From Vibrio alfacsensis (GTDB taxonomy: Bacteria; Pseudomonadota; Gammaproteobacteria; Enterobacterales; Vibrionaceae), in NCBI RefSeq assembly GCF_003544875.1, contig NZ_CP032093.1:1736001-1800000 (forward strand): DNA of 64,000 bases, written 5' to 3'. The notes beneath the pieces are model-generated. The model was given only the letters and a program-made list of their open reading frames with translations. It was not told the DNA's origin and searched no databases. Both the position numbers and the translations under genes were made by a program. Below, one piece after another: positions 48,670-59,786 of the stretch; positions within the stretch are counted from its first letter, which is position 1, and each line of letters opens with the position of its first letter.

Positions 48670-48677
48670 TGTAGTGG

Positions 48678-49528
<851 letters not shown>

Positions 49529-49529
49529 A

Positions 49530-49838
49530 TCAGCGTGTACGTTCGAGTTCGTCCGACATTAAGAGAGCTGTGGCCTTTTTTAGAATAGACTTCTCTCGCT
49601 CCAAACGGCTAATGCGGGCTTCAAGCTCTTGAATTTTTTGCTGCTCAGGCGTCAATGCTTTAGAAGTAGGAGTTATCCCGTTACGCTCAGATTTTAACTG
49701 CTCAACCCAACGGCGTAAGACAGTTTGTCCCACATCAACAGCTCTACTCGCTTCTAAAACAGTGTAATTCTGGTCAAGCACTAAGCTTGCAGCTTCTTGC
49801 TTGAACTCTGGACTAAATGTACGACGAACTCTGGTCAT
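49530..49838 (-). CDS. IS3-family transposase orfA
   Basis: Small HTH protein of 102 residues starting MTRVRRTFSPEFKQEA, with the leucine-zipper-like segment IQELEARISRLEREKSILKK. It ends shortly after the A-rich slippery site where ribosomes can shift to orfB. AGAGGTG precedes the ATG. The related copy B lacks two A residues in the slippery run. Confidence 0.9.
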   Translation of the reverse strand: MTRVRRTFSPEFKQEAASLVLDQNYTVLEASRAVDVGQTVLRRWVEQLKSERNGITPTSKALTPEQQKIQELEARISRLEREKSILKKATALLMSDELERTR

Positions 49839-49892
49839 AAAACACCTCTCTTGGGGTGGTAACTGTACCACCTAAAATGGTGTCCGGCTTTA

Positions 49893-50357
49893 TTAGACCA
49901 CTACAGGTAATAGTAATTCCCTTAACACGCCGTGAGTGCATTTATTACGCTTTTTACGTAACTCTTCGAAGTCCTGCTTTAAGTTTTCACCTAAACTTTC
50001 ACCCAGCAACTCTTGATAAATTACCAGCAAATCATCAAACTGATGAAGATATAAATCCTCGAAATCTTTATCAGTATTTTTAACATTCCACTCTGATGGT
50101 TTTTGCCCTAGCAATAACAATGGTGAAACTTTACATATTGCGCTCTTCAAGTAATTCTCGATACTTAGAAAAAGCATGATCAGCGAGTTACCTAGAGTGC
50201 CTTGATGAGATTCCCATAGCTCATCGGTCATATCTTCGCTATTAAGAAAGTGATCACCAAAAGCAAGCTCAGTATTTAAAATCAAGTCTATTGATTGAGC
50301 TAGATATTGCACACTCAGAGTTGTGAAGTCGTCCGACTTCGGAATATTTTTGATCAA
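49893..50357 (-). pseudogene. HEPN-like cassette protein, 3' end replaced by IS3
   Basis: About 154 codons from TTG 50357 (AGGAG nearby). The C-terminal part has LRKKRNKCTHGVL, which fits the Rx4-6H motif of HEPN RNases, preceded by helices (NSLIMLFLSIENYLKS). Many HEPN proteins are RNase toxins or defence effectors; here the call rests on the motif and helical character only. The last three codons and the stop come from the IS3 end, so the real C-terminus and cassette boundary are missing. Confidence 0.5.
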
Positions 50358-53239: not shown

Positions 53240-53359
53240 TAACGCCCTGTTAAGGGGTGAGCAACGCAATACCAAAGCCGCCGCATACCACCTTAAACAC
53301 TAAAACCAACGCATAGTAAAAATGCCACGCGTTGCGAATCCCTCTTGAACAATTTGTTA
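53240..53359 (-). repeat. attC site 5 (family A)
   Basis: Left edge TAACGCCCTGTTAAGG, right edge TTGAACAATTTGTTA. An IS30-family copy starts 5 bases after this edge. Confidence 0.92.
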
Positions 53360-53364
53360 TACCG

Positions 53365-54451
53365 CTTGGATTCAAGTACGAAGTGCGACACCTCTGAACA
53401 TAAAAACAGTGAGATGCGATAATCATGAAGTTTGCTCCCGCCAAGAAGTAAAAAACATGAAATACACGCACCTCACTGAGAACGAAAGGTATATGATTTC
53501 TGCACTCAGAAAGCAAGGAATTAGTACTGTTAAAATAGCTAAACAACTGGGTCGTCACAAAGCCACTATCTATCGAGAAATTGAACGTAATTCCCGATAC
53601 AACAGACACTTTAAAAGGTACTCCTATCAGGCGTGGAGAGCCCAACAAATGGCTCGCAACCGGCTGAGCCGGTCGCGCAGAAATAAGCGCTACAGCGAAA
53701 TCGACTTCAGGTTACCTGAAGCCTTGCTACGACTGGATTGGAGCCCTGACCAAATCGTCGGATACCTAAGAGTAAGAGGCTACCCAACAATGAGCCACGA
53801 GCTCATTTATCAGCATATTTGGAACGACAAAACTCTCGGTGGAACCCTATGGAAACACCTACGCCAATCCACTAAGAAAAGGCGTAAAAGGTATAACTCA
53901 AAAGACAGCCGAGGTCGGCTAGCCGCAAAGCGCCATATTACCGAAAGACCAGCAAATGCTGAGCATAGAAAAGAGCCTGGTCATTGGGAAATTGATACCG
54001 TCGTTGGCCGCGGAACCAAGCACTGTATCGTGACTTTAGTCGACAGAATGACAGGCTACTTTTATTGGGCAAATGGACGATAGAACAAGCGAGTCGCTCA
54101 ACGTAAGAATGAGCAAAATCATGACCCGCTCTGACTTACCTTTTAAGACGATAACTGCGGATAACGGCACTGAATTTCATGGTTATGCACAACTAGAAAA
54201 ACATCATAACTGTCTGTTTTACTTTGCAAATCCATACCACTCATGGGAGCGAGGGACTAATGAAAACACCAATGGCTTGATACGACAATACTTACAAAAC
54301 GAACTTCTATGTCACACGTGACACAGAAGCTCTGCAATGAAATTGCACACAAATTAAATACGCGCCCACGCAAAGGCTTGGGTATAGAACACCAACGGAG
54401 TATATTCATGCGCATCTGTAGAAAGTGTCGCACTTCAAACTTGATACTAAG
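53365..54451 (+). mobile_element. IS30-family insertion sequence, copy 1
   Basis: Element of 1087 bases with imperfect inverted ends CTTGGATTCAAGT (53365) and ACTTGATACTAAG (ending 54451), followed inside by the matching AAGTGCGACAC segments. A near-identical copy is at 56455-57544. No target duplication is seen. Both copies lie in the same orientation 5 bases from an attC edge. Confidence 0.88.
53457..54421 (+). pseudogene. IS30-family transposase, broken by indels
   Basis: Transposase of about 320 residues with an N-terminal HTH (SALRKQGISTVKIAKQLGRHK) and a DDE core: HWEIDTVVGRG, ITADNGTEFHGYAQ and GTNENTNGLIRQYL. Compared with copy 2 it lacks the AC of GGCTACAC near 54056, one C near 54295 and one A near 54375, so the frame breaks after MTGY. 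The open frame begins at ATG 53457. Confidence 0.85.
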
Positions 54452-54692
54452 TGTTTTCATCAGAAGCTTTTGGAGCAGTGTTCTTTGCTATCTGAATCAA
54501 TGTATATGATATGCCACATATGAAAAATTTGGCTATCCATAGCATTATCCCAGAGACGAGAGCTCCAATACCTAGTTGAATTCCATGCAAGACAGTGGAA
54601 AAGATACCAACTGCCACTATTAGTACTGCTAGACATGTTATAACCACATCCATGATTCTGATTAGTGACTCAAATCGCTCGACTTTTTTCAT
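54447..54692 (-). CDS. Small membrane cassette protein, 3' end fused to the IS30 end
   Basis: Protein of 81 residues with two or three hydrophobic helices (VITCLAVLIVAVGIFSTVL, SGIMLWIAKFFICGISYTL) and an N-terminal MKKVERF. The stop TAG is supplied by the end of the IS30 copy. Without the insertion the frame would read one more residue and stop at the TAA at the attC 5 edge, so little is lost. No family is recognised. It could be a membrane toxin-like or defence-linked peptide; there is no direct evidence. Confidence 0.6.
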   Translation of the reverse strand: MKKVERFESLIRIMDVVITCLAVLIVAVGIFSTVLHGIQLGIGALVSGIMLWIAKFFICGISYTLIQIAKNTAPKASDENT

Positions 54693-54773
54693 TTACACTC
54701 CCTGTAATTCATTTAAAAGCGGATATTATCTCATTTTAAGTAGCTGGCTCGACGCAATCTTGACCAAGACACA

Positions 54774-54892
54774 TAACGCCGCGTTAAGTAGTGAGCAACG
54801 CCACCCCTACCTAAACCATTGTGCCGTAAACACTAAATTCAAAGCAAACCAAAAATGCCGAGCGTTGCGAATCTGTCTTAAACGCTTTGTTA
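54774..54892 (-). repeat. attC site 6 (family B)
   Basis: TAACGCCGCGTTAAG at left, CTTAAACGCTTTGTTA at right. Confidence 0.92.
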
Positions 54893-55486
54893 TGTACGTT
54901 TCACTGCGACCACGGAATATGTATGCCAATGCTTCATTCTACCCAATGAAGTTTTCGCTGTTTCATCACGTTCAAAGAACCTGACTATTTCAAAGCCTGA
55001 GAACAAAGCCTTTACTTCTGATTCCGACAACGATGTTGTAGGGCTACGATAGTTGTTAGCCCAACTGTCTTTGAAACCCATGAAGTCACCAGCAAACACC
55101 CCACCGATTTCAATTGAAGATCTGATGTTGCTCCAAGTCGATGCAAATTGGTTTGGATCAGCGAAGAACAAACTGGAGTTTGCGATAACTACACCAGACT
55201 TGGGATAGTCGAACGACTCAAACGAGGACGCTGAAATATCCACTAATGACTTTGACCCGAACCTATCTCTACAAATAGCGACTGAATCAGGATTAATATC
55301 GAAGCCATGAACTTGATAACCCTGTTGATCGAGGTATTCGATATCACTGCCGGTTCCACAACCACAGTCAGTGGCTACTTTGAGGTTTGATTCATTGAGT
55401 CTGACAGCAAATTCAGTACGTTTTGAGTGTGGGCGAGATAGCGCCTTTTCGTAGTACTGACGCCAAATTTCAGCATTTTCATCCAT
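54890..55486 (-). CDS. Class I SAM-dependent methyltransferase (cassette)
   Basis: Protein of about 198 residues starting MDENAEIWRQYYEKALS. It has a SAM-binding loop ATDCGCGTGSDIEYL and GFDINPDSVAICRDRFG, followed by SSLFFADPNQFASTW. Resembles small-molecule methyltransferases of the tellurite resistance type (TehB-like). The stop TAA overlaps the attC 6 edge. ATG 55486 is used; the frame runs on into the neighbouring attC, which is not coding. Confidence 0.85.
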   Translation of the reverse strand: MDENAEIWRQYYEKALSRPHSKRTEFAVRLNESNLKVATDCGCGTGSDIEYLDQQGYQVHGFDINPDSVAICRDRFGSKSLVDISASSFESFDYPKSGVVIANSSLFFADPNQFASTWSNIRSSIEIGGVFAGDFMGFKDSWANNYRSPTTSLSESEVKALFSGFEIVRFFERDETAKTSLGRMKHWHTYSVVAVKRT

Positions 55487-55513
55487 AAATTTCTGATTTT
55501 CCGTAAAAGTACA

Positions 55514-55633
55514 TAACGCCCTGTTAAGGGGTGAGCGACGCAATACCGATGCCCCCGCATACCACCTTAACCACTAAAACCAACGCATAGTAAAAATGCC
55601 ACGCGTTGCGAATCCCTCTTGAACAGTTTGTTA
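55514..55633 (-). repeat. attC site 7 (family A)
   Basis: Left TAACGCCCTGTTAAGG, right TTGAACAGTTTGTTA. Confidence 0.92.
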
Positions 55634-55726
55634 GTTTGCATTTCACACAAATCGCACGATTTAATTAAATTGAACATTTCATGCGATACATTATAATCTA
55701 ACTGCACACTCAATTGGGAACTGACC

Positions 55727-55969
55727 ATGCATACATTAACAGCCAATGATGCCAAACGAAATTTCGGCGAACTACTTCTGAGCGCACAACGCGAGCCAGT
55801 AAAAATCAGCAAAAACAGTAAAGATACTGTCGTTGTCATGTCCATTCGTGACTTTGAAGAGCTAGAAGCTATGAAAGTTGAGTACCTCAAACACTGCTTT
55901 AAGTCAGCTAAAGAAGACTTGAACAATGGAAACACTGTTGATGGCGAAAGCTTTCTGAACTCGCTGTAA
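55727..55969 (+). CDS. Phd/YefM-type antitoxin (cassette, reversed)
   Basis: Protein of 80 residues starting MHTLTANDAKRNFGELLLSA, the Phd/YefM DNA-binding fold, and ending in an acidic disordered tail likely to cover the toxin. It is followed after seven bases by a ParE-like toxin and points opposite to the other cassettes, so it must have its own promoter within the preceding 94 bases. Confidence 0.9.
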   Translation: MHTLTANDAKRNFGELLLSAQREPVKISKNSKDTVVVMSIRDFEELEAMKVEYLKHCFKSAKEDLNNGNTVDGESFLNSL

Positions 55970-55976
55970 CTAACTT

Positions 55977-56276
55977 ATGCAAAAGAACAAATACAAGCTA
56001 AGTAACTTAGCGCAATCTCACTTGCGCAAAGTAAAAAACTACACTGTTGAAAACTTTTCTGAATTACAGTGGCGTAACTACAAAGATACTCTGCTATCAG
56101 GGTTTCAGATGCTAGCTGATAATCCAGGCTTAGGAAGAAGTTGTGACGAGATATACCCAAATGGCTTTTATTTCCCGATTGGAAAACACACAGCTTATTT
56201 CACCAAAGAACATGACTTTATCTTAGTCGTTGCTGTCTTAGGTCAATCACAGCTACCCCAGAATCATCTGAAATAA
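55977..56276 (+). CDS. ParE/RelE-superfamily toxin (cassette, reversed)
   Basis: Protein of 99 residues with the ParE layout: KYKLSNLAQSHLRKVKNYT then a middle helix and GLGRSCDEIYPNGFYFPIG, ending ILVVAVLGQSQLPQNHL. ParE toxins poison gyrase. The stop lies 53 bases before attC 8. With the antitoxin it makes a self-stabilising cassette. Confidence 0.88.
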   Translation: MQKNKYKLSNLAQSHLRKVKNYTVENFSELQWRNYKDTLLSGFQMLADNPGLGRSCDEIYPNGFYFPIGKHTAYFTKEHDFILVVAVLGQSQLPQNHLK

Positions 56277-56329
56277 CACGACTTTCACCCTAGAAATAAT
56301 AACTGGGGTGAGAGTCTATCCATGCAAAC

Positions 56330-56449
56330 TAACGCCTTGTTAAGGTGTGAAGCACGCAATACCAAAGCTTCCGTATACCACCTTAACCACAAAACCTGAC
56401 GCATGGTCAAAATGCCACGCGTGCTGAATCACTCTTGAACAATTTGTTA
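56330..56449 (-). repeat. attC site 8 (family A, changed arms)
   Basis: The inner arm GAAGCACGCAAT has a matching change in GCGTGCTGAATC on the other side, a compensatory difference that keeps the hairpin. An IS30 copy starts 5 bases after the right edge. Confidence 0.92.
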
Positions 56450-56454
56450 TGTTT

Positions 56455-57544
56455 CTTGGATTCAAGTACGAAGTGCGACACCTCTGAACATAAAAACAGT
56501 GAGATGCGATAATCATGAAGTTTGCTCCCGCCAAGAAGTAAAAAACATGAAATACACGCACCTCACTGAGAACGAAAGGTATATGATTTCTGCACTCAGA
56601 AAGCAAGGAATTAGTACTGTTAAAATAGCTAAACAACTGGGTCGTCACAAAGCCACTATCTATCGAGAAATTGAACGTAATTCCCGATACAACAGACACT
56701 TTAAAAGGTACTCCTATCAGGCGTGGAGAGCCCAACAATGGCTCGCAACCGGCTGAGCCGGTCGCGCAGAAATAAGCGCTACAGCGAAATCGACTTCAGG
56801 TTACCTGAAGCCTTGCTACGACTGGATTGGAGCCCTGACCAAATCGTCGGATACCTAAGAGTAAGAGGCTACCCAACAATGAGCCACGAGCTCATTTATC
56901 AGCATATTTGGAACGACAAAACTCTCGGTGGAACCCTATGGAAACACCTACGCCAATCCACTAAGAAAAGGCGTAAAAGGTATAACTCAAAAGACAGCCG
57001 AGGTCGGCTAGCCGCAAAGCGCCATATTACCGAAAGACCAGCAAATGCTGAGCATAGAAAAGAGCCTGGTCATTGGGAAATTGATACCGTCGTTGGCCGC
57101 GGAACCAAGCACTGTATCGTGACTTTAGTCGACAGAATGACAGGCTACACTTTTATTGGGCAAATGGACGATAGAACAAGCGAGTCGCTCAACGTAAGAA
57201 TGAGCAAAATCATGACCCGCTCTGACTTACCTTTTAAGACGATAACTGCGGATAACGGCACTGAATTTCATGGTTATGCACAACTAGAAAAACATCATAA
57301 CTGTCTGTTTTACTTTGCAAATCCATACCACTCATGGGAGCGAGGGACTAATGAAAACACCAATGGCTTGATACGACAATACTTACCAAAACGAACTTCT
57401 ATGTCACACGTGACACAGAAGCTCTGCAATGAAATTGCACACAAATTAAATACGCGCCCACGCAAAAGGCTTGGGTATAGAACACCAACGGAGTATATTC
57501 ATGCGCATCTGTAGAAAGTGTCGCACTTCAAACTTGATACTAAG
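56455..57544 (+). mobile_element. IS30-family insertion sequence, copy 2
   Basis: Element of 1090 bases with the same ends as copy 1. On reading it differs from copy 1 only by short gains and losses. It is located exactly 5 bases after attC 8, in the same orientation as copy 1 relative to its attC. Confidence 0.88.
56547..57514 (+). pseudogene. IS30-family transposase, nearly intact (one frameshift)
   Basis: Same protein as copy 1 (MKYTHLTENERYMISALRKQ to EYIHAHL). One A is missing in the run near 56738 (copy 1 has CAACAAATGG, this copy CAACAATGG), breaking the frame after WRAQQ; from 56741 to the stop at 57514 it is open and contains all three DDE regions. With the missing A it would be functional. 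Confidence 0.88.
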
Positions 57545-57927
57545 AAGTGTATTGGCTTAAGTGATTCTCTATAAATTCGATATCAGCTCGATAAAAATCA
57601 CCAAGTGGAATAGCACTTGGCTCAAGCCAAAAGAAAGTTTGCTGCCTTACCTCATCAATCATCTGAGGTTCAGTATCATTACCGCGCGTAAAACAACATA
57701 ATGAATTTCACCACCAAAATCATTTTAGCTTGATGACTACCGAGTCGCTTTAAACCTTGCAGTCCCGTTTCTTCCCACAGTTCTCTAACTGCTGCTTGAT
57801 TACCTGACTCACCAGGGTCAATAGAACCGCCTGGGAATTCAAATACCATCCCTTGCCCTCGTCTGAAGCGCTTTTGGATAAGAACTTTTCCATCTCTTAC
57901 GACCACGCCCATTGCAATATTTTTCAT
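57540..57927 (-). pseudogene. Nudix hydrolase cassette gene, two frameshifts
   Basis: Protein of about 129 residues starting MKNIAMGVVVRDGKVLIQKR with the Nudix box GGSIDPGESGNQAAVRELWEETG intact in sense and spacing. After GSHQAK the frame breaks: one A missing (near 57727) and one T missing (near 57693); the rest reads NDFGGEIHYVV then RGNDTEPQMIDEVRQQTFFW to IENHLSQYTS. The stop is formed with the IS30 end. It would hydrolyse an oxidised or modified nucleotide. Confidence 0.8.
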
Positions 57928-58551: not shown

Positions 58552-58619
58552 TGTAGTGGTCTAATAAAGCCGGACACCATTTTAGGTGGTACAGTTACCA
58601 CCCCAAGAGAGGTGTTTTA

Positions 58620-58876
58620 TGACCAGAGTTCGTCGTACATTTAGTCCAGAGTTCAAGCAAGAAGCTGCAAGCTTAGTGCTTGACCAGAATTACACTGTTT
58701 TAGAAGCGAGTAGAGCTGTTGATGTGGGACAAACTGTCTTACGCCGTTGGGTTGAGCAGTTAAAATCTGAGCGTAACGGGATAACTCCTACTTCTAAAGC
58801 ATTGACGCCTGAGCAGCAAAAATTCAAGAGCTTGAAGCCCGCATTAGCCGTTTGGAGCGAGAGAAGTCTATTCTAA
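58620..58876 (+). pseudogene. IS3-family orfA, frameshifted
   Basis: MTRVRRTFSPEFKQEAASLV to PEQQK as in copy A, then the frame changes because the A-run (58819-58823) has five instead of six bases. The slippery run before orfB is AAAAG rather than AAAAAAG, so programmed frameshifting would not work as written. Confidence 0.85.
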
Positions 58877-58928
58877 AAGGCCACAGCTCTCTTAATGTCG
58901 GACGAACTCGAACGTACACGCTGATTGA

Positions 58929-59764
<836 letters not shown>

Positions 59765-59786
59765 CCGGAAATTGTTGACCACTACA

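Follow-up and report, generated by a model that had tools for sequence, protein, structure and literature searches.

Two copies of an insertion sequence (IS) of the IS30 family lie beside two different attC recombination sites in a 64,000-nucleotide stretch of the Vibrio alfacsensis genome (NCBI RefSeq assembly GCF_003544875.1, contig NZ_CP032093.1, positions 1,736,001 to 1,800,000), hereafter the window, which is part of a long cassette array. Both elements belong to the ISVa6/ISVvu6 group. Comparison of the two copies with their relatives makes it likely that elements of this group target one arm of attC with site and orientation specificity, and that they read the arm as linear DNA. In most of the copies compared, the left (transposase-start) end lies 5 nt outside the gene-facing edge of attC, and the last three of these five nucleotides are duplicated in many copies.

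Copy 1 (53365..54451, plus strand, 1087 bp) begins 5 nt after the edge of a minus-strand attC (53240..53359) with a gene-side edge that reads TTTGTTA (TAACAAA on the minus strand), and the spacer TACCG occupies 53360..53364. Copy 2 (56455..57544, plus strand, 1090 bp) begins 5 nt after a second minus-strand attC (56330..56449), across the spacer TGTTT (56450..56454). Element boundaries were set by the tips common to both copies; the attC sites were recognized by sequence, by repeat family (D1/D2 for the first) and by pattern match. The distances from attC edge to element start (53359 to 53365 and 56449 to 56455) and the common orientation agree with the original prediction, which had drawn attention to the identical offsets. 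It had also claimed that each element supplies a TAG stop codon to the neighboring minus-strand gene, and this holds: an 81-amino-acid cassette gene with no assigned function (54447..54692) ends with ...SDENT* at a TAG (54447-54449) inside the right tip of copy 1, and a NUDIX cassette gene (57540..57927), which has a broken frame in the window, ends with ...HLSQYTS* at the TAG (57540-57542) of the right tip of copy 2. An alignment of the two attC sites has 108 identical columns out of 124, and the flanks on the gene side are unrelated, so the pair is not one duplicated block but, as had been proposed, the product of separate insertions. The genome, of 4.91 Mb, has no other full copy; an attC-arm pattern allowing up to 3 mismatches matches it 117 times on one strand and twice on the opposite one. 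By our own arithmetic from these roughly 119 matches, the chance that one random insertion falls at this distance and in this orientation is about 1e-5.

Family identity is secure. The NCBIfam transpos_IS30 model matches the two window copies with scores of 142 and 268 bits (cut-off 80), and two intact relatives encode proteins of 322-323 amino acids in which HTH_38 and rve are the only domains found. The terminal inverted repeats pair a left tip, CTTGGATTCAAGTACGAAGTGCGACAC, with a right tip, CTTAGTATCAAGTTTGAAGTGCGACAC, and relatives of copy 1 are mostly about 1091 bp long. Identity is 96.0-97.2% to plasmid copies annotated as ISVa6 and 93.3% to one annotated as ISVvu6. ISVa6 is listed from V. 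anguillarum NB10 in a report that, in the portion available, states no target (PMC4572688).

A survey of the kind that the original prediction had proposed, with distance and orientation to attC recorded for every copy, extends the pattern well beyond the window. The left-tip pattern, with one mismatch allowed, was run over 227 Vibrio genomes and found 71 left ends in 30 of them, 54 of which adjoin a Vibrio-type attC. Addition of named plasmid and contig records gave a larger set of 97 distinct left flanks, with 76 at attC and 21 elsewhere. Calls were made with a weight matrix plus a motif rule; two flanks missed by the motif rule (L009 and L208) were assigned to attC by eye, and one (L108) was admitted by a separate rule. 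It is the left end that faces attC every time, at exactly 5 nt in 74 of the 76 copies and at 4 nt in the other two (L022 and L187), rather than at the random distances that would have spoken against targeting. The usual edge of attC is used in 75 cases; L108, which is among the 74, sits at the opposite edge, also five nucleotides beyond GTTA. A weight-matrix scan of offsets 0-60 in both directions and at both edges likewise placed strong attC-arm matches at 4 or 5 nt. Right ends behave differently: a TAAC-type box occurs within 25 nt in only 1 of 92 distinct right flanks, which is about chance, and that single case (L044, with its right end 5 nt from TAACAAG) was rejected as an instance of right-end targeting. 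The 70 copies for which a right flank was read have 68 distinct ones, L112/L113 and L201/L210 being the two pairs that share theirs, and the insertions are therefore mostly separate events. L112 and L113, from one genome, have the same 60-nt right flank and different left attC sites, which points to recombination between the copies or to duplication of a cassette. More distant relatives, at about 66% nucleotide identity in three genomes, lie at attC in five of six copies. The phage collection contained no match to the element.

Target duplication and IS-free sites provide a second line of evidence. Where both ends were read, a repeat of the last three spacer bases follows the element on its gene side in 22 of the 53 copies at attC and in 8 of the 17 away from it (30/70 overall), whereas chance would give 1 in 64. 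The NUDIX cassette occurs twice in the same array with different attC sites, and only the window copy (57545-57927) carries the IS. Its IS-free counterpart (C1:1847200-1848300; L255), 99% identical, reads TTTGTTA-TGTGT-ATTGG, and another IS-free NUDIX cassette is present in a further genome (G107). A related junction in another genome (L013 in G026), truncated on its attC side, reads IS-TGT-ATTGG, as a 5-nt offset and a TGT duplication predict. At window copy 2 the junction reads IS-AAG-TGTATTGG, and the AAG is without explanation. The search for empty sites that had been suggested thus succeeded for copy 2, within the same genome, and failed for copy 1, because its 299-nt flank has no match in any other of the 227 genomes.

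What the element recognizes can be judged from insertions away from attC. In 20 of the 21 off-attC flanks (L013, an attC remnant, was left out), position -10 is T in 16, position -9 a purine in 17 and position -8 T in 17. AATC starts at -27 or -28 in 10 of the 20, against 0.27 expected, and TTRTTA at -11 to -6 is matched at 5 or 6 bases in 10 of the 20, against 1.8% of background positions; the other ten match at 1 to 4 bases. In attC flanks the AATC mostly starts at -28, TTGTTA occupies -11 to -6, and the typical spacing from AATC to TTRTTA is 13. The two halves correspond to the inner and the outer box at which the integrase binds in an attC arm. In three genomes (G000, G200 and G223), AATC-N12/13-TTRTTA occurs 176, 118 and 195 times, against 68, 52 and 48 for the reversed control, from which attC is estimated by subtraction to make up about 61, 56 and 75% of motif sites; the left ends at attC in these genomes number 2/2, 7/8 and 5/6 (14/16 in all). 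As attC sites are by this estimate more than half of the motif sites, linear sequence together with array tolerance can account for most of the attC preference. The attC box TAACAAA also resembles the tip of the IS, TATCAAG, which lies equally far from the end, but this idea was rejected because the match is post hoc and the outgroup described below has the left tip without attC targeting.

The original prediction had ascribed insertion at the attC/gene junction either to the transposase or to the folded attC. Directed insertion itself is upheld by the survey and the IS-free cassette, and the two agents fare differently. Recognition of the folded single-stranded hairpin, as by the integron integrase, would fit the concentration of insertions at attC and the folding of attC flanks, which is better than that of shuffled sequences (median z -2.2, with 39 below -2 among the 74 of 76 flanks compared, two short ones being left out). 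The 21 off-attC flanks, however, fold like shuffles (median z -0.28), and many of them show the linear motif just as far from the insertion point as attC does. The arms of attC also pair with each other, yet 75 of the 76 insertions lie at one edge and one at the other. As off-attC insertions often show the attC-arm motif at an unchanged distance and mostly lack a hairpin, no folded attC is required and linear reading by the transposase is favored; the hairpin explanation is unlikely. A protein that sits on attC, for example the integron integrase, could instead recruit or position the transposase. This would explain why distance and orientation relative to a recombinase box are fixed, and a similar layout is described at pdif/dif in the text available to us (PMC10132070). 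Insertions beside TTRTTA and AATC in places without attC argue against it, and we consider this explanation rather less probable than hairpin recognition.

Two further explanations concern how the pattern could arise without targeting. Cassette arrays are tolerant regions, and random insertion followed by survival only in such dispensable DNA probably adds to the attC share. Neutrality cannot, however, yield one orientation and 74 of 76 copies at exactly 5 nt; the offset distribution refutes random insertion as a sufficient cause, and this explanation is scarcely credible. An origin of one window copy from the other, with the attC flank copied along by duplication or recombination, would suit the nearly identical IS bodies and the absence of a clean target duplication at either, and the L112/L113 pair shows that a common right flank can accompany differing left flanks elsewhere. 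Against it stand the differences at 16 of 124 aligned columns between the window attC sites, the unrelated gene flanks (the original prediction had named duplication with the attC flank as a possible refutation), the fit of the IS-free NUDIX cassette to insertion at 5 nt and the rarity of repeated right flanks; such an origin is very improbable.

Targeting of the linear arm would proceed as follows. The transposase may read the attC arm as ordinary double-stranded DNA, with AATC-N12/13-TTRTTA as the putative recognized motif and 5 nt from there to the insertion point. Since no other kind of site in a Vibrio genome would match this motif as often as attC, most insertions would occur there. The attC would be kept whole and usable, and the IS would become a passenger inside the cassette. 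Where the stop of a gene was formerly the TAA at the edge of attC, the CTTAG of the IS tip would provide TAG in the same codon position and leave the protein hardly changed.

This last step can be followed in the NUDIX gene, which in its IS-free form ends with ...HLSQYT* and takes its TAA stop from the edge of attC. Read towards the gene, the right tip is CTTAG, and with a 5-nt offset and a 3-bp duplication the first base of the last sense codon is kept and is followed by TAG in place of TAA. Among 53 attC copies with at least 300 nt of gene side, a frame of at least 50 codons runs into the IS in 17, and 14 of these 17 are in the TAG phase (one third expected, p about 5e-5), although 6 of the 14 come from one record (L198 and L201-L205). 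The remaining 36 of 53 have no such frame, and stop replacement holds for part of the insertions only. Off-attC copies have a long frame in 13 of 17 cases, 4 of them in the TAG phase.

The outgroup bears on the same question. IS30 relatives outside Vibrio, from an order-level search with hits in 39 of 394 genomes at E 1e-40, have about 41% amino acid identity and nearly the same left tip (CTTGGATTCA), and none of their 13 distinct readable left flanks lies at attC. TTRTTA is matched with a score of at least 5 in one of the 13, and AATC stands near -27 in two, which may reflect a weak preference of older date. Their right tip, GGCAGATTC or GGCGGATTC, lacks TAG in the seven read. Targeting of attC thus seems to be a property of the Vibrio/Photobacterium clade. 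The right tip may have been selected for replacing the stop of the cassette gene. In the outgroup, whose left tip is almost identical and which does not target attC, there is no stop at the right tip. A protein-only DDE transposase could have independently become an attC specialist that reads both boxes linearly, with its CTTAG tip shaped to recreate the stop. We regard this fuller account as tentative, somewhat short of an even chance, in part because the stop phase is readable in only 17 of 53 attC copies.

Several observations weigh against targeting of the linear arm or limit its reach. The proposed mechanism derives from sequence comparison only. Indels break the transposase frame in both window copies at different places (that of copy 1 begins with the ATG at 53457), perhaps as sequencing errors. 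Neither copy has a clean 3-bp duplication: copy 1 has CCG/TGT, and copy 2 has TTT with the extra AAG ahead of the expected TGT. More widely, 40 of 70 copies (31 at attC and 9 elsewhere, both window copies included) have no 3-bp duplication, which recombination between copies or adjacent deletion could cause. About half of the off-attC flanks miss one or both motif halves, and such motif-poor sites may reflect either relaxed reading or another origin; folding does reach a z below -2 in four of the 21 off-attC flanks. Array tolerance may inflate the attC share, and arms are alike within arrays, which makes the motif hard to part from other attC features. Left-end counts exclude right-end fragments and copies with a left tip more than one base off the pattern, and one relative at 67% nucleotide identity with a degenerate left tip (L063) lies away from attC.

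Among known systems, the IS1111 family offers the closest parallel in target. As had been assumed, attC targeting is established there: in the part of the source available, IS1111-attC group elements such as ISKpn4 and ISPst6 insert at one end of the cassette attC and use a DEDD transposase with a guide RNA (PMC11187229). The ISVa6/ISVvu6 group shares the target (76 of 97 left ends) and differs in its transposase, which is of the IS30 type and has HTH and rve domains. The IS1202 family is the nearest analogue in layout, with ISAjo2 and ISAba71 placed 5 bp from XerC boxes in a single orientation at pdif/dif (PMC10132070). As far as that text extends, its members are about 1.5 kb long with transposases of 441-457 amino acids, a 5-bp target duplication and dif/pdif targets, whereas the ISVa6 group has 1.09 kb, 322-323 amino acids, 3 bp and attC; membership was rejected on all four differences. 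E. coli IS30, of the same transposase family, has hot spots, inserts beside its own ends and makes a 2-bp rather than a 3-bp duplication, with no attC target described in the sections available (PMC9333248). The original prediction knew of no IS30-family element that targets attC, and our searches of the PMC library showed no such report, a scope that leaves most subscription papers and the ISfinder notes outside. Domain scans of the element proteins gave no match to the IS110-type model. Group IIC-attC introns also insert at attC. They are retroelements, whereas HTH and rve are the only domains found in the open reading frame of intact ISVa6-group relatives. The available text on these introns treats them as mobile elements associated with integrons (PMC7923331).

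Other features surround the two copies. Two near-identical, inverted transposase-bearing elements, IS3-like by appearance (48670-49905, minus; 58552-59786, plus), enclose both IS30 copies and several cassettes, and the second of them splits an attC in the middle. A Phd/YefM antitoxin and ParE toxin pair (55727-56276) lies between the two IS30 copies; it is encoded on the plus strand, whereas the other cassette genes run the opposite way. Elsewhere, a 40.9-kb circular V. vulnificus record (NZ_CP016323.1; L180) has 53 attC-arm matches and seven IS left ends. Three pairs of these left ends are about 28.82 kb apart, and it therefore seems that about 11 kb is present twice or that the assembly is at fault.

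ISVa6 and ISVvu6 elements are common and already named, and they offer a natural system for understanding how strict choice of target and orientation arises in such a transposase. The known attC-targeting IS found in print is the RNA-guided IS1111 family; here an unrelated DDE transposase attains near single-base precision. Targeting of attC helps to explain the IS load of Vibrio cassette arrays, and the placement of the parasite would spare both the cassette gene and the recombination site. If the attC-specialist account is true, these elements would be near-silent parasites that keep the gene and its attC working and that are able to travel in cassettes.

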